Shown here piece by piece: positions 5,121 to 54,365 of a DNA stretch of 64,000 bases; position 1 is the stretch's first letter, and each line of letters starts with the position of its first letter. The DNA comes from Alistipes sp. (lineage in GTDB: Bacteria > Bacteroidota > Bacteroidia > Bacteroidales > Rikenellaceae): the NCBI GenBank assembly GCA_017463615.1, contig JAFTOU010000012.1, forward strand, positions 1 to 64,000. The letters are read 5' to 3'. The position numbers were made by a program, and so were the translations under genes. The notes under the pieces are model-generated. The model was not told where the DNA came from. It ran no database searches and saw nothing but the letters and a program-made list of their open reading frames with translations.

Positions 5121-6242
5121 CTATTTAAGTGTATTAACAATTTCTGTTGCGAATCTTTGTGATGCACCCTGGCTGCCAATAAGGCTCTGCAGACGGGCAA
5201 AGTCGGCAAGCATAGCCTCGCGCTTAGAGCCACCCTTGAGTATTGAGCGGAGCTCTGTAGCGGCATCTGCAAGGTCTATCTTTGCGCAGACAATCTCGCG
5301 CACAGCCTCCTTGCCGAGGTTGATATTTACCAGCGATATGTACGGAATCTTGAGCACATAGGGGCGGAGTGCCTCGTAGAGCTTAGGTACATGATAGAGC
5401 ACCATTTCGGGAATACCCATCAGCGCCGTCTCAAGGGTCGCAGTGCCCGATGTCACTATCGCAGCCTCGGCTACAGATAGGGTCTGCTGGGTCTGGTTGC
5501 AGAGGTATTTTATCTTCTCAGAGCCGTACTTGTCGTACACCTCGCGCTCTATCCACGGCACAGCAGTGACAATAAACTGATAGTCTGGAAATAGCTCCGC
5601 TATGGCCGCCATATCGGGTAGGTTTGCCCGTATCTCCGATACGCGACTACCCGCCAGTAGAGCAACGATAGGGCGGGAGTCAAGACCGTTCTGCGCTATA
5701 AACTGCTCGCGTGAGGGTAGTGTTAGCCTTCGCTCGGCAATGTCGTCTACAAGCGGATTGCCACAGAAATGGGGCTCTATGCCCTTGCTGCGGAAATAGT
5801 CGGTCTCAAATGGAAAGATGGTGTAGATGCGATCTACATACTTTTTCAGACTCTTCACTCGCCACTCCTTCCACGCCCATACCTTCGGAGCTATGTAGTA
5901 GTAGACCTTGATACCCTTGCGGTGCGCCCACTTGGCTATGCGCATATTGAACGACGGATAGTCTATCAAGATTATCACATCGGGAGCAAACTGTTCTATG
6001 ACACTCTTGCAGAGGGCAATCTGACCGAATATGGTCTTTAGATTAAGCAAAACATTGACAAAGCCAAAGAATGACATCTGCTTGTAGTGCATCACAAGCC
6101 CATCCTTGCCACCAACCTCAGCCATTCGGTCACCGCCACAAAAACGAAACTGCGCATCGCCATCCTCACTGGCAATACCCCGCATCAACTTACTTCCGTG
6201 CAAATCCCCCGACGGCTCCCCCGCAATGATAAAATATTTCAT
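5121..6242 (-). CDS. lpxB: lipid-A-disaccharide synthase
   Basis: This 373-residue GT19 enzyme of the inner face of the inner membrane condenses UDP-diacylglucosamine with lipid X to form the lipid A disaccharide. Diagnostic segments are the N-terminal YFIIAGEPSGDLHGSKLM, FCGGDRMAEVGG, YYIAPKVWAWKEWR, FPFETDYFRSKG, FCGNPLVDD and VALLAGSRVSEI. The length fits the family. It opens a minus-strand run with the FAH-family gene. TAATTTTG on the minus strand at 6294-6301 is a likely -7 element, which would put heptad repeat copy C in its 5' leader. Confidence 0.95.
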   Translation of the reverse strand: MKYFIIAGEPSGDLHGSKLMRGIASEDGDAQFRFCGGDRMAEVGGKDGLVMHYKQMSFFGFVNVLLNLKTIFGQIALCKSVIEQFAPDVIILIDYPSFNMRIAKWAHRKGIKVYYYIAPKVWAWKEWRVKSLKKYVDRIYTIFPFETDYFRSKGIEPHFCGNPLVDDIAERRLTLPSREQFIAQNGLDSRPIVALLAGSRVSEIRANLPDMAAIAELFPDYQFIVTAVPWIEREVYDKYGSEKIKYLCNQTQQTLSVAEAAIVTSGTATLETALMGIPEMVLYHVPKLYEALRPYVLKIPYISLVNINLGKEAVREIVCAKIDLADAATELRSILKGGSKREAMLADFARLQSLIGSQGASQRFATEIVNTLK

Positions 6243-6246
6243 ACTC

Positions 6247-6282
6247 TTTAGCTTTTAGCCATTAGCCATTAGCTGTTGGCTC
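6247..6282 (-). repeat. heptad repeat, copy C (no hairpin)
   Basis: On the minus strand GCCAACA, GCTAATG, GCTAATG, GCTAAAA and GCTAAA run in tandem. The hairpin and 11-base spacer of copies A, B, D and E are absent. It lies between lpxB and its probable -7 element. Confidence 0.7.
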
Positions 6283-6324
6283 GCTTATTTGTGCAAAATT
6301 AAAAAAAAACGCCGAGAATACCAC

Positions 6325-6351
6325 ATCTGTCAAAAATAATTTCTAAATTTG
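6325..6351 (+). promoter_or_regulatory. promoter of structured RNA copy 1
   Basis: TAAATTTG (6344-6351) matches TAnnTTTG. A weak upstream element (TCTG, 6326-6329) lies at the expected distance. Initiation 4 bases after the box falls exactly on the first base of helix P1 (6355). Confidence 0.6.
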
Positions 6352-6354
6352 TGG

Positions 6355-6591
6355 TGCAGTCCACGGGTTGCAGACATAATTACGCAGAAAGTGTAAGTTT
6401 ATTCTCACGATGGAATCTGGAAAATTCAAAAGGGAGAGGATGAGCGGACATCTTCTCGCGTCGTACCCTGCAATGGGGTATAGGCGTGAGGTTGTTGCTT
6501 ATTTTATCCCAGGGTATTCCAGAACCTCATCGTTAAAATATGCTTCAGCACCACGCTTTCTTTTTGTTATATAGTGCGATGGAGGTGCTAC
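6355..6591 (+). ncRNA. structured RNA/leader, copy 1 of a two-copy family
   Basis: The predicted helices are P1 6355-6362/6366-6372, followed directly by GACATA; P2 6387-6394/6553-6560; P3a 6408-6412/6528-6532; a 3x4 internal loop GAA/ACCT; P3b TCTGGAA/TTCCAGA 6416-6422/6517-6523; P4 6455-6460/6485-6490; and P5 6547-6552/6584-6589. The 5' strand of P5 abuts the 3' strand of P2, and the two helices cross as a pseudoknot. The same set occurs at 14179-14442 with compensatory changes in P1, P3a, P4 and P5. It ends about 11 bases before the start of the next gene, which suggests a 5' leader, although a free RNA is possible. I do not recognise it as tmRNA, RNase P, SRP or standard 6S RNA. Confidence 0.7.
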
Positions 6592-6601
6592 TCGTGTAAA
6601 A

Positions 6602-7093
6602 ATGGCGTATATGAGAAATTTTATTTTGGCATTAGCATTACTTGTGAGTACCACAGCAACAGCGCAAACTTTTAGATTTTTCCAAACCGATAATATTCAT
6701 AATCAGCTGAGATTGAATACTAAAACAGGCGAAGTGGTGCAAATTCAGGATGATGGGCAGGAGTTTTTAGTGCATCCATCCACGACTCCAGATAATACAA
6801 TATCAAACAGATACTCTCTGTATAAAACACAGAATATGTGGACATATATTCTGCTGGATAGCTTTAATGGCAAGCTGTGGCAGTGTCAGTATAGTGTGAA
6901 GGGTTTGGAATATATATCGTCGTGGGTTATCAATAATCAACCGCTATCATCAACAAATACTGCAAAATTTATAGTTCAACCTATGACAAGTATGTACCAA
7001 TACTACTTAATAAACGATGAAACAGGTAGCATGTGGAAATTTCAATGGTCTACAAAAGGTGATGATTATCGCTGGATAGAAAGATTTAAGTAA
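6602..7093 (+). CDS. small secreted protein with three beta repeats
   Basis: This 163-residue protein has a signal peptide (FILALALLVSTTATAQ). The mature part contains about three copies of a short repeat of the form Leu-x-Asp/Asn-x-x-x-Gly-x-x-Trp/Val-x-x-Gln, seen in LNTKTGEVVQIQ, LDSFNGKLWQCQYSVKG and INDETGSMWKFQWSTKG, so a small beta-propeller or beta-solenoid fragment is plausible. No known family is recognised. An alternative start is the ATG at 6611. It is AT-rich relative to the neighbours, as is the next gene 19 bases downstream, and together they look like a transferred or fast-evolving pair under the structured RNA leader. Confidence 0.7.
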   Translation: MAYMRNFILALALLVSTTATAQTFRFFQTDNIHNQLRLNTKTGEVVQIQDDGQEFLVHPSTTPDNTISNRYSLYKTQNMWTYILLDSFNGKLWQCQYSVKGLEYISSWVINNQPLSSTNTAKFIVQPMTSMYQYYLINDETGSMWKFQWSTKGDDYRWIERFK

Positions 7094-7112: not shown

Positions 7113-8120
7113 ATGAAAAAGTTTATAGTATTTTTTGGCGCATTGCTGATTTGTGGTGTTGCAGCTGCACAAGAGAAGATTGATTTTTATAAATTTATTG
7201 AGAGTATTGATTGGAACTCAACAAGAGAACAGTTTGTTGAGAAGCATAGGAATATTATACTCCCAGATTCGGTTAGAACTTCAAATGTATTTACTAGGGG
7301 AGATAAAGATATTTTTATCCAAAATATTTGTATTGGGGATATTGCAATTGAAGAAGTTATAATACGCTTTGATACATTAGCAAATAAACTTATAAACATA
7401 TCTATGTCCTATAGTGCTAATTCAGACGAAAGTTCTGACAATATAAAATATCGTCATGATAAGATAACGAATAGCTTAAATGATAATATTGGGGAACCAT
7501 TTTGTGTAGCGTTTTATAGCTATTATTTTCACAATAATTGTGTAATTTCAGATATGAAATTATCTTCTTATCTTTCTTCAAGATTTTTTAAGATTACACC
7601 ACCTGCTCCGCGTTATGAAAAAGACTTTAGAGTTGCAAATTGGGGTGATTCAAAGGAAAAGATACGAGATTTAGAGGGAAGGATGGATGAGTCAGGTGGT
7701 GACAGAGATGCGTATGGTTTTGAAGATCGTTTAGGGGATTTGAAATGTATAGTTATCTATAAGTTTGCAAATGATAAGTTGATTTGGGCAAAATATATGT
7801 TTGAAGATATAGAGGATGATAAGGCAATTTATCATTATAATCGTTTTGAAAAGATGCTTGATAGGAAATATGGAGTTGTTAGCAAAGATGGAACACACTG
7901 GAAAGATGGTAAATATGAGGAGGAATACAAGGATAAAGAGATTGAAGCTATCAAAAAAGAATATAGAAAAAGATATAAGTTCTGGTGCAATGGACCGACA
8001 GAGGTGTTTATGGGGATTATAGATTCTGACAATACTAAAAACGGTTGGTACTTAACAATAGAATACCATAGTCGTGAAATGGAGAAGATTCAAGAACAAG
8101 CCGTCTTTGATGCTTTGTAA
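7113..8120 (+). CDS. secreted protein of unknown function
   Basis: This 335-residue protein has a signal peptide (MKKFIVFFGALLICGVAAAQ). The mature part is rich in Lys, Asp, Tyr and Ile, with no transmembrane segment. It looks like two related halves: each begins with a short WNST/WGDS segment (DWNSTREQFVEKHR near residue 28, NWGDSKEKIRDLEG near 185), as in proteins that carry a duplicated helix-turn-strand domain. No family is recognised. Its low GC contrasts with the housekeeping genes around it. It is probably cotranscribed with the preceding secreted gene and ends at a strong terminator. Confidence 0.7.
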   Translation: MKKFIVFFGALLICGVAAAQEKIDFYKFIESIDWNSTREQFVEKHRNIILPDSVRTSNVFTRGDKDIFIQNICIGDIAIEEVIIRFDTLANKLINISMSYSANSDESSDNIKYRHDKITNSLNDNIGEPFCVAFYSYYFHNNCVISDMKLSSYLSSRFFKITPPAPRYEKDFRVANWGDSKEKIRDLEGRMDESGGDRDAYGFEDRLGDLKCIVIYKFANDKLIWAKYMFEDIEDDKAIYHYNRFEKMLDRKYGVVSKDGTHWKDGKYEEEYKDKEIEAIKKEYRKRYKFWCNGPTEVFMGIIDSDNTKNGWYLTIEYHSREMEKIQEQAVFDAL

Positions 8121-14147: not shown

Positions 14148-14175
14148 CTTGTTTACGAAACTTTTTCTAATTTTG
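14148..14175 (+). promoter_or_regulatory. promoter of structured RNA copy 2
   Basis: TAATTTTG (14168-14175) fits TAnnTTTG, with CTTG (14148-14151) near the -33 position. As in copy 1, helix P1 begins exactly 4 bases after the box. Confidence 0.6.
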
Positions 14176-14178
14176 TAG

Positions 14179-14442
14179 TGCCGTGAGCTATCTCTACGCG
14201 GCAGACATATTTTGATGAAAGTGTATTAGCTTTTATCCCTTTCGGAAATCTGGAAAATTTCATTGCACAGGGGAAGCAACACACTCGTCACTTCGTATTG
14301 TATAGTTTGGGGTGCTTTTTGCCCTATGCTCAATACGAGTGTGGGGTATTGTTTATTTGTGCAGGGCATTCCAGAGCCTCCGAAAGATAGACTAATCAAC
14401 TCCACACTTTCTTTTTATATAATCCACCGCATAGGAGTTGCT
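14179..14442 (+). ncRNA. structured RNA/leader, copy 2 of a two-copy family
   Basis: The predicted helices are P1 TGCCGTG/CGCGGCA 14179-14185/14197-14203, again followed directly by GACATA; P2 GAAAGTGT/ACACTTTC 14217-14224/14404-14411; P3a CTTTCGG/CCGAAAG 14239-14245/14380-14386; internal loop AAA/GCCT (again 3x4); P3b TCTGGAA/TTCCAGA 14249-14255/14369-14375; P4 14289-14300/14331-14341; and P5 CAACTCC/GGAGTTG 14397-14403/14434-14440, which abuts P2 and forms a pseudoknot. Compared with copy 1 at 6355-6591, P1, P3a, P4 and P5 differ in sequence but stay paired, while the TTTATTT and CAGGG segments and a CTTTCTTTTT run are conserved. The next gene starts 26 bases after P5. Confidence 0.7.
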
Positions 14443-14466: not shown

Positions 14467-15582
14467 ATGAAAAAACTGTTCGTGATTATTGTATGTCTAT
14501 TGTGTGGAGTTGCAACATCATTAGCGCAGGAAAGATTAGATTCATTATTCTATCTAAATGGAAAGATAGAAGTTGTTTCAATCTTGAAAAATTCCAGCCA
14601 AGCAATTGAATGCAACTATATTGGCGAAGATTTGGTCTCTTTAATTGAGAAGTCAGAGTTGTATAAAATTGTTTTTAGGAGTGGAAGAGTAGAGGTGTGT
14701 AACGAGGTGAAAAAGGTGGAATATGATCAGATTTATTTTGCTAATGGAAGTATGATTGATGCGAAAGTAGTTAAATTGTCAGAAGAGTCAGTTGACTATG
14801 TATTGCCCAATGAGAACTTACCTATTACCACATATAAATCGTTACTTAACAAAATTGTATTCGCTAATGGTAGAATTGAGAAATTTGGTAATTTGTTGCA
14901 GATTAAACGAATAACATCTGAAGAGCAGTGGGAGGATGTAGTTGTTTCTTATAATGAATCTGATACAAGAGGATTAGAAAGAGTTGCGGAGATATCCAAA
15001 GCATCAGGTTGGGGTGGTGAGCTAGCTTCAGGTGTCGGATATAATAAAGCTATCAAACTTTGTCAAAAAGAGGCAGCAAAACTTAGATGTGGACTTATTT
15101 TGATAAATGCTACACCTAATGCTCAGAATGTACGATATGGAGCGGGTGTTAGAGTTAATGTCACAGCTTATCGTTTGCCTAAACGGAATACGTCTAATGT
15201 AAATACAGAGCCTTTGTCATTGTATGGACTCTATGGGGACGATGCAGTAATAGTAGAGCTGTCAGAGGATGGCAAGCACGGCAAGGCGATAAAGACTTTT
15301 AATATGGTCAGTTCGTATAGGAATGCTCAGCTGAAATGTCAAGAATTAGAGATAGGTGAGGGTTGGAGATTGCCTAATACGGGGGAGATGCTCTCTATTA
15401 TGAAGAATAGAGATGTAATAAACAAAACCCTTAAAGCAGAGGGTCTGGTGCTCTTGTCTTCAAAGTTTAACTATTGGTGTTATGCTGCAGAGCCGACAAT
15501 AATAGATGCAAAAACACTCCAAACAGCAGTCCGCGGTCAAAACCAACTTGCATACGATTACATCGCAATCTTAGACTTTTAA
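14467..15582 (+). CDS. secreted repeat protein with Lcl/DUF1566-like C-terminus
   Basis: This 371-residue protein has a signal peptide (MKKLFVIIVCLLCGVATSLAQ). Residues about 25-140 hold two copies of a 55-residue beta repeat, each starting YLNG/FANG and ending KIVFxxGRxE. A middle section (ASGWGGELASGVGYNKAIKLCQ onward) resembles small periplasmic DUF4156-type folds. The C-terminus (IVELSEDGKHGKAIKT, then GWRLPNTGEMLSI) is a divergent version of the Lcl/DUF1566 module found complete in the proteins at 35114 and 36989, but its YWSSTE motif is degraded to YWCYAAE. Function is unknown. It lies under the structured RNA leader. The start was chosen at the signal peptide; the longer upstream frame runs through the RNA. 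Confidence 0.75.
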   Translation: MKKLFVIIVCLLCGVATSLAQERLDSLFYLNGKIEVVSILKNSSQAIECNYIGEDLVSLIEKSELYKIVFRSGRVEVCNEVKKVEYDQIYFANGSMIDAKVVKLSEESVDYVLPNENLPITTYKSLLNKIVFANGRIEKFGNLLQIKRITSEEQWEDVVVSYNESDTRGLERVAEISKASGWGGELASGVGYNKAIKLCQKEAAKLRCGLILINATPNAQNVRYGAGVRVNVTAYRLPKRNTSNVNTEPLSLYGLYGDDAVIVELSEDGKHGKAIKTFNMVSSYRNAQLKCQELEIGEGWRLPNTGEMLSIMKNRDVINKTLKAEGLVLLSSKFNYWCYAAEPTIIDAKTLQTAVRGQNQLAYDYIAILDF

Positions 15583-51698: not shown

Positions 51699-54365
51699 AT
51701 GGCAGTAGAGAAAAAATATGTTGAGACACCCTTGATGAAGCAGTACTACCAAATCAAGGCTGTACACCCCGATGCGATACTTCTTTTCCGCGTCGGAGAC
51801 TTCTATGAGACCTTTGGCGACGATGCTATAGCGGCATCGGCAATCCTCGGCATCACACTTACAAAGCGTGCTAATGGCGCAGCGTCGGCAGTAGAGCTTG
51901 CAGGCTTTCCATACCATGCTGTGGAGACCTATCTGCCAAAGTTGGTGCGTGCAGGTAAGCGTGTGGCTATCTGCGAGCAGCTTGAGGACCCAAAGACTGT
52001 CAAGGGACTTGTTAAGCGCGGTGTGATAGAGTTGGTCACCCCGGGTGTTACGCTGAGTGATAACTTGGTGGAGAATAAGGAGAATATATACCTCGCCTCT
52101 GTCTGCTTCGGCAAGGAGAAGACGGGTGTAGCATTTCTGGATATCACTACGGGTGAATTTTTCGTTGCCGAGGGCGATGATAGGTATGTAGATAAGCTGA
52201 TATCAAGCCTTGCGCCGAAGGAGATTGTCTACCAGCGTGGCTGTGAGGAGCGTTTCCGCACTGCCTTTGGAACAAAGCACTACACATATCGTCTGGAGCA
52301 GTGGGTATTCTCCTATCAGGTCAATGTAGACAAGCTCTGTACCCAGTTTGGCACTCAATCTCTGCGTGGCTTTGGCGTGGAGGGGATGAACGAGGGTATT
52401 ACCGCTGCGGGAGCGATTCTCTACTACCTTGAGTTTACCGAGCATAAGCAGATTGCCCATATCAGCTCTATCTCTCGTCTTGACCAGAACGACTATGTTT
52501 GGATTGATAAGTTTACCATTCGCAACCTTGAGCTCTTTAGCTCTAATGGTGGCGACAAGAGTTCGTTTGCAAAGGTTATAGACCGCACGCAGACCCCTAT
52601 GGGTGGACGACTGTTGCGACGATGGATAGCGATGCCGATACTTGATATTGAACGCATTACGCGCCGTCAGGATGTAGTGGCGTCCTTTGTGGAGAATAGC
52701 CAGCTGGCATACGCCGTAAGGGAGCAGGTGAGTAGCATTGGCGACCTTGAGCGTATCGCTTCGCGTGTGGCGTCTATGCGTGTCACTCCGCGAGAGTTGG
52801 TGCAGCTGAAGAACTCGCTGGCGGCCATTGAGCTTCTCAAGGCAGCGCTGGAGTCTACAGACTCGCCAGTGCTGCACTCCATAGCCGAGAAGATTGATAC
52901 TCTGGAGGCTGTGCGTCAGCGTTTAGAGCACGATATATATCCAGATCCTGCGGTAAATCAGATTCAGAAGGGCGGTATTATTGCCGATGGCGTAAATGCG
53001 GAGCTGGACGATTTGCGTCGCGTGGCTCTGCATGGCAAGGATGTGCTGCAGACCATTCAGCAGCGCGAGAGTGAGGCTACGGGTATTCCGTCGCTCAAGA
53101 TTAGCTACAACAATGTCTTTGGCTACTATATAGAGGTGCGCAATACCTATAAAGATAGGGTGCCAGAGAACTGGATTCGCAAGCAGACACTGACCGCTGC
53201 CGAGCGATATATTACAGAGGAGCTTAAGGAGTACGAGACCAAGATTTTAGGCGCCGAGGAGCGTATGCTTGTGCTGGAGCAGCAGATTTACAACGAGTTG
53301 CTTGCCTATATCTGTCTACACCTCAAGCAGTTGCAGGCGGATGCTAAGGCTGTGGCGACGATAGACTGTCTGCTCAGCTTTGCAACCCTTGCCGTAGAGC
53401 GAGGCTACTGTCGTCCGACGCTTGACGATGGCGTAAAGATTGAGCTCAAGGCGGCACGCCACCCTGTGATTGAGACCCTGATGGGGGTAGGGGAGCAGTA
53501 TATCCCGAATGACCTTGTGTTAGATTCCGACAACGAGCAGATAATCATTATCACAGGTCCGAATATGTCGGGTAAGTCGGCACTGCTCCGCCAGACGGCT
53601 CTCATTGTGCTTATGGCGCAGATGGGTTCGTTTGTGCCAGCTGCAAAGGCTCATATCGGCATTGTAGATAAGATATTTACCCGCGTGGGTGCGAGTGATA
53701 ATATTTCGCAGGGTGAGTCTACATTTATGGTTGAGATGTTGGAGAGCGCAAGCATCCTGAACAATATCTCTAAGCGAAGCCTTGTGCTGCTTGACGAGAT
53801 TGGTCGCGGAACAAGTACCTACGACGGTATCTCTATAGCTTGGTCTATGGTTGAGTATCTACACAACCATCGCAACCTGCAGCCACGAACACTCTTTGCT
53901 ACGCACTATCATGAGCTCAACGAGCTGGAGCAGATGTGTCAGCGTGTGAAGAACTACCATGTATCGGTGCGCGAGGTGGATAATACAATCGTCTTCCTGC
54001 GTAAGTTGGAGAAGGGTGGTACGGAGCACTCGTTTGGTATTCATGTGGCGCGTATGGCAGGTATGCCGACATCTATCGTAGAGCGCGCAACGACCATACT
54101 AAAGAGTCTTGAGCAGGTCTATGGCGACAATGAGATTGTCCCTTCAGTATCTCCATCGGCACGCAAGCGCTCGCGCAAGCCTTCGCCATCTGTGGCAGGT
54201 GCAGTGCAACCAGCTGCCGATGCAATACAGCTCTCAATGTTCAAGATTGATGACCCTGTGCTCATAAAGATACGCGACCAGATTAAAGACTTGGATATCA
54301 ACAGCTTAACGCCGTTACAAGCACTTAATCTGCTATCCGAAATCAAGAAGTTGGCAGAGGAGTAG
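51699..54365 (+). CDS. mutS: DNA mismatch repair protein MutS
   Basis: This 888-residue protein recognises mismatches with the Phe-x-Glu motif in LLFRVGDFYETFGDDA and uses a C-terminal ABC-type ATPase: Walker A TGPNMSGKSALLRQ (about 618), DNISQGESTFMVEM, Walker B LVLLDEIGRGTSTYDG (about 699) and ATHYHELNEL. The length and domains I-V are complete, and the C-terminal SMFKIDDPVL tail is typical. I start it at the ATG at 51699 rather than the upstream TTG. It is monocistronic and faces udk across a long hairpin. Confidence 0.97.
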   Translation: MAVEKKYVETPLMKQYYQIKAVHPDAILLFRVGDFYETFGDDAIAASAILGITLTKRANGAASAVELAGFPYHAVETYLPKLVRAGKRVAICEQLEDPKTVKGLVKRGVIELVTPGVTLSDNLVENKENIYLASVCFGKEKTGVAFLDITTGEFFVAEGDDRYVDKLISSLAPKEIVYQRGCEERFRTAFGTKHYTYRLEQWVFSYQVNVDKLCTQFGTQSLRGFGVEGMNEGITAAGAILYYLEFTEHKQIAHISSISRLDQNDYVWIDKFTIRNLELFSSNGGDKSSFAKVIDRTQTPMGGRLLRRWIAMPILDIERITRRQDVVASFVENSQLAYAVREQVSSIGDLERIASRVASMRVTPRELVQLKNSLAAIELLKAALESTDSPVLHSIAEKIDTLEAVRQRLEHDIYPDPAVNQIQKGGIIADGVNAELDDLRRVALHGKDVLQTIQQRESEATGIPSLKISYNNVFGYYIEVRNTYKDRVPENWIRKQTLTAAERYITEELKEYETKILGAEERMLVLEQQIYNELLAYICLHLKQLQADAKAVATIDCLLSFATLAVERGYCRPTLDDGVKIELKAARHPVIETLMGVGEQYIPNDLVLDSDNEQIIIITGPNMSGKSALLRQTALIVLMAQMGSFVPAAKAHIGIVDKIFTRVGASDNISQGESTFMVEMLESASILNNISKRSLVLLDEIGRGTSTYDGISIAWSMVEYLHNHRNLQPRTLFATHYHELNELEQMCQRVKNYHVSVREVDNTIVFLRKLEKGGTEHSFGIHVARMAGMPTSIVERATTILKSLEQVYGDNEIVPSVSPSARKRSRKPSPSVAGAVQPAADAIQLSMFKIDDPVLIKIRDQIKDLDINSLTPLQALNLLSEIKKLAEE

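Follow-up and report, generated by a model that had tools for sequence, protein, structure and literature searches.

Leaders with two alternative folds are known among riboswitches and attenuators. Among the structured RNAs of the Bacteroidetes, Flavo-1, 6S-flavo, Bacteroidales-1 and Bacteroides-1 are named in PMC2864571, where a Bacteroides-2 motif is given without an Rfam accession. PMC11697453 describes FopS, a 14-member paralogous family of small RNAs in Bacteroides that are about 65–70 nt in length and act in trans on susC-like mRNAs. The RNA analysed here is likewise a structured RNA of this group, and the Rfam models of Flavo-1, 6S-flavo, Bacteroidales-1 and Bacteroides-1 match no copy tested. 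It shares with FopS the character of a multicopy RNA family in the Bacteroidota, but differs in having a body of mostly 174–236 nt that lies in cis ahead of a downstream gene (termed the cargo below) at a fixed distance. Judged from its sequence, the element behaves as a structured regulatory leader; we assign it to no named class.

The window, the 64-kb stretch of DNA that was analysed, contains two copies of the element, both on the forward strand. Starting at the 5′ side, copy 1 has a promoter −7 box of the TAnnTTTG form (TAAATTTG, 6344..6351) and the P1 hairpin (TGCAGTC/GGTTGCA, 6355..6372), which has compensated differences among copies. The RNA body extends from GACATA to the U-tract (6373..6565). 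It contains P2a, or strand e (GAAAGTGT, 6387..6394), P3a (6407..6413), P4a (TCTGGAA, 6416..6422) and P6a (6432..6441), and then returns through P6b (6501..6510), P4b (TTCCAGA, 6517..6523), P3b (6527..6533), P5a (AGCACC, 6547..6552) and P2b, or strand h, which passes into the U-tract (ACGCTTTC plus U-tract, 6553..6565). Beyond the body the hairpin P8 (6576..6595, found by eye) carries P5b (GGTGCT, 6584–6589) in its loop. Two cargo open reading frames (ORFs) follow, of 163 aa (6602..7093; no Pfam match above cut-off) and 335 aa (7113..8120; no Pfam match at E ≤ 0.1), both with a signal-peptide-like start by eye.

Copy 2 is built in the same way, with a −7 box (TAATTTTG, 14168..14175), P1 (TGCCGTG/CGCGGCA, 14179..14203) and a body from GACATA to the U-tract at 14204..14416. 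The ascending part comprises P2a (strand e, GAAAGTGT, 14217..14224), P3a (CTTTCGGA, 14239..14246), P4a (TCTGGAA, 14249..14255) and P6a (14263..14271), and the descending part P6b (14356..14364), P4b (TTCCAGA, 14369..14375), P3b (TCCGAAAG, 14379..14386), P5a (CAACTCC, 14397..14403) and P2b (strand h, ACACTTTC, with the U-tract, 14404..14416). The stem of P8 (14426..14447, by eye) is ACCG/CGGT and its loop contains P5b (GGAGTTG, 14434–14440). The 371-aa cargo (14467..15582) has its start codon 50 nt past the body; by eye it begins like a signal peptide, and Pfam gave nothing above cut-off.

The layout common to both is therefore TAnnTTTG, 3 nt, P1, GACATA, GAAAGTGT and a long imperfect hairpin that holds TCTGGAA/TTCCAGA, followed by ACACTTTC or ACGCTTTC, TTTTT, and GGTGCT or GGAGTTG shortly before the ORF. 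A sequence-only reading of the window had named TAnnTTTG, P1, GACATA, GAAAGTGT, TCTGGAA/TTCCAGA, TTTAT/CAGGG and CTTTCTTTTT, and all lie where it placed them in both copies; its interval of exactly 4 bases between TTTG and P1 has to be corrected to 3, in both copies alike. The P2 helix, in which GAAAGTGT pairs with ACACTTTC or ACGCTTTC, was absent from that reading, as were the many further copies, the leader position and a second, alternative set of helices, all described below. The bodies are 193 nt (copy 1) and 213 nt (copy 2) in length, and the minimum-energy fold of both is the long hairpin. The folding energy is −86.2 for copy 1 (shuffle mean −64.4, z = −4.7) and −93.8 for copy 2 (shuffle mean −65.4, z = −6.1), and 0 of 200 shuffles fold as low.

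A BLAST search of the window's own genome with both stretches returned further copies. A first covariance model (R1) consisted of the joined core with the apical part cut out; its matches were badly placed because the apical region varies, and it was replaced by R2, a model of the body built on 33 aligned natural copies including both from the window (11 from the own genome and 22 others from the genus). R2 omits the promoter, P1, P5b and the start codon, so that these are usable as independent tests. In the 64-kb window R2 finds only copies 1 and 2 (143.6 bits, E = 4e-35, and 197.4 bits, E = 9e-49; both are training sequences), the next scores being 23.5 bits, for a mirror-image hit to the opposite strand of copy 2, and background at 9.9 bits or less. 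The own genome has 17 copies at E < 1e-7, 11 of them training sequences, so that the description as a two-copy family holds for the window and not for the genome. In the genus, 171 of 180 genomes give an R2 match when 12 candidates are scored in each. With 5 candidates per genome, matches were obtained in 132 genomes out of 393 (78 genera out of 207) for the order and in 36 out of 395 (19 genera out of 171) for a sample of the phylum; since the candidates scored were limited, copy numbers per genome are lower bounds. Five of the phylum-sample matches, as judged by R2 score, lie outside the class. As the E-values are rough, 40 order-level loci, which form the top of the match list and are hence biased to strong matches, and 19 loci of the phylum sample, 18 of them outside the order (class-level), were read. 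By eye most of the loci inspected carry the full motif set; among the 40 at order level P4 is misplaced in L116 and correctly placed in the other 39. A scan with an exact pattern found at least 116 stretches; among the matches listed there are 80 named records, of which 57 have Rikenellaceae names in their titles (34 Alistipes) and others include Bacteroidaceae, Muribaculaceae and Prevotella.

The class-level copies from other orders (L310–L328 except L313) are a compact version of 162–183 nt, several of which have an e.f pairing of AGCAT with ATGCT. Two loci have paired copies with hardly anything between them, about 30 nt apart in L142 and about 160 nt apart in L306. Most of the RNA has been lost by natural deletion in L013 (G000:C34:784-842, minus strand), where an element of 59 nt is left, and in L270 (G027:C35); both keep the promoter, P1 and ACATA ahead of the gene.

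The element is not mainly viral as far as exact patterns reach, since viral matches are rare. Weak matches occur in 2 of 50,697 phage records, one of which (L354) has an R2 copy at 167 bits, and scans of viral contigs with exact patterns gave 0, 4, 1 and 0 contigs. Of these five contigs, R2 finds a strong copy in one (L353, 185 bits), a weak copy in another (L349, 22.6 bits) and no copy in three. L349 is an IMG/VR contig with its copy at 6053–6222 on the minus strand; L353 also has ORFs resembling integrases by eye, and could be the host flank of a provirus. A plasmid element was considered and gave no match.

At the gathering threshold, Rfam 15 recognises only a tmRNA and two tRNAs in the window, and at E ≤ 10 the two copies give only chance hits far below the gathering scores of the families concerned. 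There was no hit to the 18 class-level loci at E ≤ 0.5, nor any inside the element at E ≤ 0.1 in the 20 order-level loci searched out of the 40, where two tRNAs and two DUF805b lay outside it. A known Rfam class is ruled out by this lack of a match in the copies tested, and the view that the RNA belongs to no known class has held to that extent. Among the open-access papers listed none describes it. The comparison drew on passages of text, among them ones from PMC8040213, PMC7366714, PMC11701678 and PMC9723704 (the source of the sRNA Rfp18), and the terms looked for in PMC11109978 and PMC8632094 gave no hits.

Across the order the strand starts with the promoter and an optional P1, and continues through ACATA, e (AAAGCGU), a (UUUAUCC), P3a, GAAA, P4a, AAUUUC and P6a. 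The middle part consists of b (GGAUAAGCAG), f (AACGCUCACG), the apical loop, g (CGUGGGCU), c (CUGUUUAU) and P6b. On the 3′ side come GGGU, P4b, ACCUC, P3b, d (AUAAAC), P5a, h (ACGCUUU) and the U-tract, past which hairpin P8 with P5b as its loop is followed by about 17 nt and the AUG. The 5th to 95th percentiles of body length are 174 and 236 nt in 178 copies, with extremes of 59 and 291. P3 is mostly 8–10 bp and P6 mostly 8–13 bp, and these are the most variable helices, with 125 and 150 distinct sequences, respectively, in 172 copies; all 16 own-genome copies listed differ. P4 has 27 different 7-mers in the 172 copies, one of which accounts for 112. In the consensus pairs of the 33 aligned copies there are 181 G–U against 26 A–C or C–A oppositions, and this excess of G–U indicates that selection acts on the transcribed strand.

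The position of the element is that of a 5′ mRNA leader, with putative control of the gene that follows. The sequence TA..TT[TCA]G occurs within 100 nt upstream in 160 of the 170 copies with enough upstream sequence, compared with 28.7 on shuffling. In 131 of 170 copies an ORF of ≥35 aa has its start codon 35–80 nt past the body; the controls gave 17, 14 and 9 of 170 for shuffled downstream sequence, 10 of 169 for the other strand on the upstream side, and 36 of 160 for a shift of 600 nt. From the end of P8 to the AUG the median distance is 17 nt (quartiles 12 and 21; 157 copies), with 61% at 10–25 nt. In 24 elements the first ORF of ≥50 aa is 140–299 nt away, and 16 of these have a small ORF at the usual distance. 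These small ORFs, of ∼36–47 aa and with a shared pattern like Y(L/I)APE.EV..E.GF..S, lie between the RNA and genes for large lipoproteins, for example in L040, L059, L075, L039, L003 and L046; NCBIfam gave no match to five of them, nor Pfam to two. The leader arrangement is not uniform at the class level, since only 7 of the 18 copies outside the order have an ORF of ≥50 aa at 25–90 nt. The remainder comprise two with an ORF at 136 and 179 nt, four at 222–226 nt and five with none within 300 nt. The four (L315, L322, L326 and L327) lie ahead of ORFs that are SusC-like by eye.

The helices proposed in the sequence-only reading are real. Besides the depth of folding in the window, an RNAalifold analysis of the 33 copies has 28 of 46 consensus pairs in which both partners change, with compensation, in one copy or more. 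Covariation was tested by scoring each duplex against partners dealt out among the copies, a procedure that keeps composition and not relatedness. It was applied to 40 distant and 132 other copies, these being 172 of the 178 elements after removal of L030, L033, L116 and L036 (P4 misplaced) and of L031 and L013 (no P4 fit); z values are given below in the order distant/other, negative energy scores being the better. P4 (−14.6/−21.7), P3 (−23.8/−39.9), P6 (−17.8/−47.5) and P5 (−11.2/−14.6) all score well in energy, and a retest by pair score gave 10.3/16.1 for P5 and 5.0/10.3 for P8. The covariation claimed for P5 from AGCACC/GGTGCT and CAACTCC/GGAGTTG exceeds permutation, and the helix is a pseudoknot, formed between the strand just before P2b and the loop of the P8 hairpin ahead of the start codon. 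With homologues in the genus, order and phylum sample and many covarying pairs in the larger alignment, the proposal of a functional RNA family is borne out, and a chance resemblance of two inverted repeats is ruled out.

Two mutually exclusive sets of pairings beat permutation. One makes a single rod (e.h, a.d, b.c and f.g) and the other two hairpins (e.f, a.b, c.d and g.h). With non-overlapping segments the rod pairings a.d (3.3/9.4) and b.c (4.1/8.4) and the hairpin pairings a.b (2.6/6.3) and c.d (5.2/4.4) exceed permutation, the controls being a.c (−0.7/1.2) and b.d (−0.4/−3.6); for a.b in the distant copies, 1 of 200 shuffles was as good. With wider, partly overlapping windows, in which a.d and b.c overlap P3 and P6, the energy z values are −4.0/−11.9 for e.f, −5.3/−10.0 for g.h and −4.9/−10.7 for e.h. 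Nine control pairings spanned −3.7 to +5.1 with these windows, and as the strongest lean in the same direction (e.g, −2.3/−3.7) shows, e.f in the distant copies is only modestly above control. The pair adjacent to P4b, which forms in the hairpin fold only and is unpaired in the rod, is a standard one in 35 of the 39 distant copies that could be parsed (27.4 on shuffling, and at most 32 in 2000 shuffles; one copy unparsed) and in all 128 parsed other copies (shuffled 105.7, maximum 113; four unparsed). The putative stem S1 (GAAA/UUUC) has no covariation in the distant copies (z = −0.6), and is not supported there as a covarying stem. Covariation among the aligned sequences supports P3, P4, P6, P5 and P8 together with two incompatible helix sets. 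Hairpins A (the 5′ half) and B (the 3′ half) are alike, so that part of the second pairing set could be a by-product of the first. In 70 copies, kissing and pseudoknots being uncounted, the mean energy is −72.7 for the rod and −60.1 for two separate hairpin domains; given this mean difference of 12.6 kcal/mol in favour of the rod, the two-hairpin state may exist only briefly. Hairpin B abuts the U-tract in the five examples taken in which the 3′ half was folded by itself, and a simple scan limited to loops of 3–8 nt found no terminator at the U-tract.

The cargo is diverse. An ORF of ≥50 aa lies within 300 nt of 170 of the 178 elements, and these fall into 109 families after removal of nine identical elements from the family analysis. 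A regulon for a single pathway is not supported by 109 families in 170 copies, and with 31 of the 170 in the largest family the cargo is not wholly random. Pfam and PADLOC were applied to 94 of 105 cargo ORFs, 11 short, doubtful or duplicate ones being left out. Pfam found 93 families, of which LRR_5 is commonest (16 cargos); others include zinc ribbons, BACON, DUF4988, CsgG, an EcoRI-type methylase and nucleases. Some cargos resemble defence genes in PADLOC. Two divergent copies in one genome, at G000:C37:58519-58711 on the plus strand (L109) and 53428-53613 on the minus strand (L110), lie ahead of genes for an EcoRI-type adenine methylase and for an SPFH/Band-7 protein that has a GYF_2 domain; a different subtype, represented by these two, may accompany defence genes.

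The gene upstream of the element is shared by 34 pairs of elements and the cargo by 2 of these. In a recheck of 30 pairs, 2 were not re-found, several have only 26–46% identity and may be paralogues, and four have some ORF of the cargo stretch in common. Three genomes have the arrangement lpxB–[RNA–cargo]–trmD, in which the flanks are conserved and the cargo operon differs among all three, with identities between pairs of 67–75% for lpxB and 91–96% for trmD. In three others (G028, G111 and G092) lpxB adjoins trmD without RNA or cargo, and in G005 about 300 bp separate the two genes, again without either. Short repeated GCCATTAGCCATTAGC tracts lie beside lpxB at 6250–6290 in the window, and similar tracts occur in L270, again close to lpxB, and in the window at its trmD edge. 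In the pair L034/L050 (from G027 and G028) the DNA is 96% identical across the upstream gene, promoter and body. Identity is lost in the alignment directly past the U-tract, the BLAST match extending 38 nt, and resumes at 94% about 2.5 and 3 kb on, inside an ORF. The 97% identity of L078/L192 stops 2 nt past the body, and P1, P3 and P6 differ between these copies yet stay paired. Similarity in four more diverged pairs (L066/L073, L065/L084, L152/L212 and L078/L193) stops 8–34 nt past the body. A precise mobile unit with two defined ends is not supported at its right end, the mapped exchange ending inside an ORF.

Comparison of the copies establishes the RNA structure, the leader position, the P5–P8 pseudoknot and the indifference of the element to the gene downstream. 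The reading that we find on balance probable, by a little, is that the element is a bistable, cis-acting leader RNA at the head of exchangeable cargo. That it switches, whether it acts on termination, translation or both, in which direction and upon what trigger are the parts of this reading that we infer. The leader would start at its own promoter and precede the start codon at a near-fixed distance. During synthesis the 5′ half would form hairpin A (e.f and a.b) and the 3′ half hairpin B (g.h and c.d), the loops of which would kiss through the 7 bp of P4. Ending at the U-tract, hairpin B could halt RNA polymerase or hold P5a. Strand exchange proceeding outward from P4, through P3 and P6 and then P2, would convert the pair of hairpins into a single rod, freeing P5a to pair with the loop of P8 next to the start codon, so that termination and/or translation would be reset. 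P3 and P6, different in most copies, might act like bar codes that keep the pairing in cis. Genes would be replaced together with their own P8 and P5b just past the U-tract, and the body would remain.

Extending this to a phylum-wide expression-site RNA is a tentative proposal, possible rather than probable. The body would be resident and accessory genes would come and go past the U-tract, and with each gene would arrive a P8/P5b adaptor that docks on the resident body via P5. The body would be the switch from kissing hairpins to rod, the copy-specific bar codes of P3 and P6 would prevent some 17 sister switches of one cell from pairing among themselves, and captured genes would fall under one common control.

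Some of the same evidence would suit a static leader, in which the rod and the P5/P8 pseudoknot are the sole functional fold and stabilise the mRNA or aid recruitment of the ribosome. To our knowledge this phylum scarcely uses Shine–Dalgarno pairing, and such a leader might be a structured translation enhancer upstream of the start codon. The long hairpin being the minimum-energy fold of both window copies, the rod being so on average in the 70 copies, the spacing of P8 from the start codon and a cargo of many sorts all agree with it. We nevertheless hold it, in either form, to be rather unlikely, as pairs found only in the two-hairpin fold (the closing pair at P4b, c.d and a.b) covary and a conserved U-tract behind hairpin B would be left unexplained. 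Cyclic-dinucleotide riboswitches provide a precedent for one signal that governs many unrelated accessory genes, and the internal loops round P4 (GAAA/ACCTC and AATTTC/AGGGT) could bind a metabolite or signal in this manner. In the order-level copies inspected, conservation is strong in these loops, which border the variable P3 and P6, and the 17 copies in one genome would fit such a signal; yet the cargos share no pathway from which a ligand could be named and the conserved loops are partly accounted for as S2 pairs, so that a ligand-sensing riboswitch seems to us unlikely.

A free-standing small RNA would end at the U-tract, with the downstream genes incidental or simply read through. The body does close with a hairpin and U-tract, and among the class-level copies the five without a nearby ORF and the four with one at 222–226 nt are what it would predict. 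Against this, P5b and P8 lie past the U-tract and covary, either with the body or between themselves, and a start codon stands at the usual 35–80 nt in the great majority of copies; we consider it improbable. Even less probable, in our estimation, is that the element is a DNA recombination site, like the attC of integrons or a target hairpin, that receives cassettes, the RNA fold being a by-product of a DNA hairpin. The change of cargo just past the body in near-identical loci, and different cargo at the same genomic site, are what such a site would give. The predominance of G–U over A–C and the conserved spacing of promoter and start codon are not, and the one exchange that was mapped has its right end within an ORF, at no recognisable site.

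A strongly structured RNA of ∼200 nt that R2 finds in nearly all scored genomes of the genus and more thinly elsewhere in the Bacteroidota, with no Rfam match found, would rank among the larger uncatalogued leader classes, and would link many accessory, surface and defence-like genes to a single control at the level of RNA. If the alternative folds are true, it would be a natural switch operating by strand exchange from kissing loops; if the exchange of cargo at the 3′ end is true, it would offer a route to asking how newly acquired genes come under control.

The bistable leader that we favour can be set beside other known systems. Like riboswitch and attenuator leaders it is a structured 5′ leader that has a promoter of its own, covarying helix sets that would exclude each other, a U-tract and a pseudoknot near the start codon. 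Unlike them, it precedes genes without a common pathway, and its alternatives would be two kissing hairpins and one rod. Integron cassettes have attC hairpins, and the likeness here is that of a hairpin-bearing fixed point beside exchangeable genes; the present element differs in lying upstream of the genes, in having a promoter, in being selected as RNA and in that a defined right end is not supported. In the HIV dimer-initiation site and in ColE1 RNAI–RNAII, kissing between loops can mature into an extended duplex. The progression from kissing to extended duplex is common to these and to the switch proposed for the leader, with the difference that here a single RNA would contain both hairpins and control of a gene would result; the likeness is one of process, and no homology is claimed.
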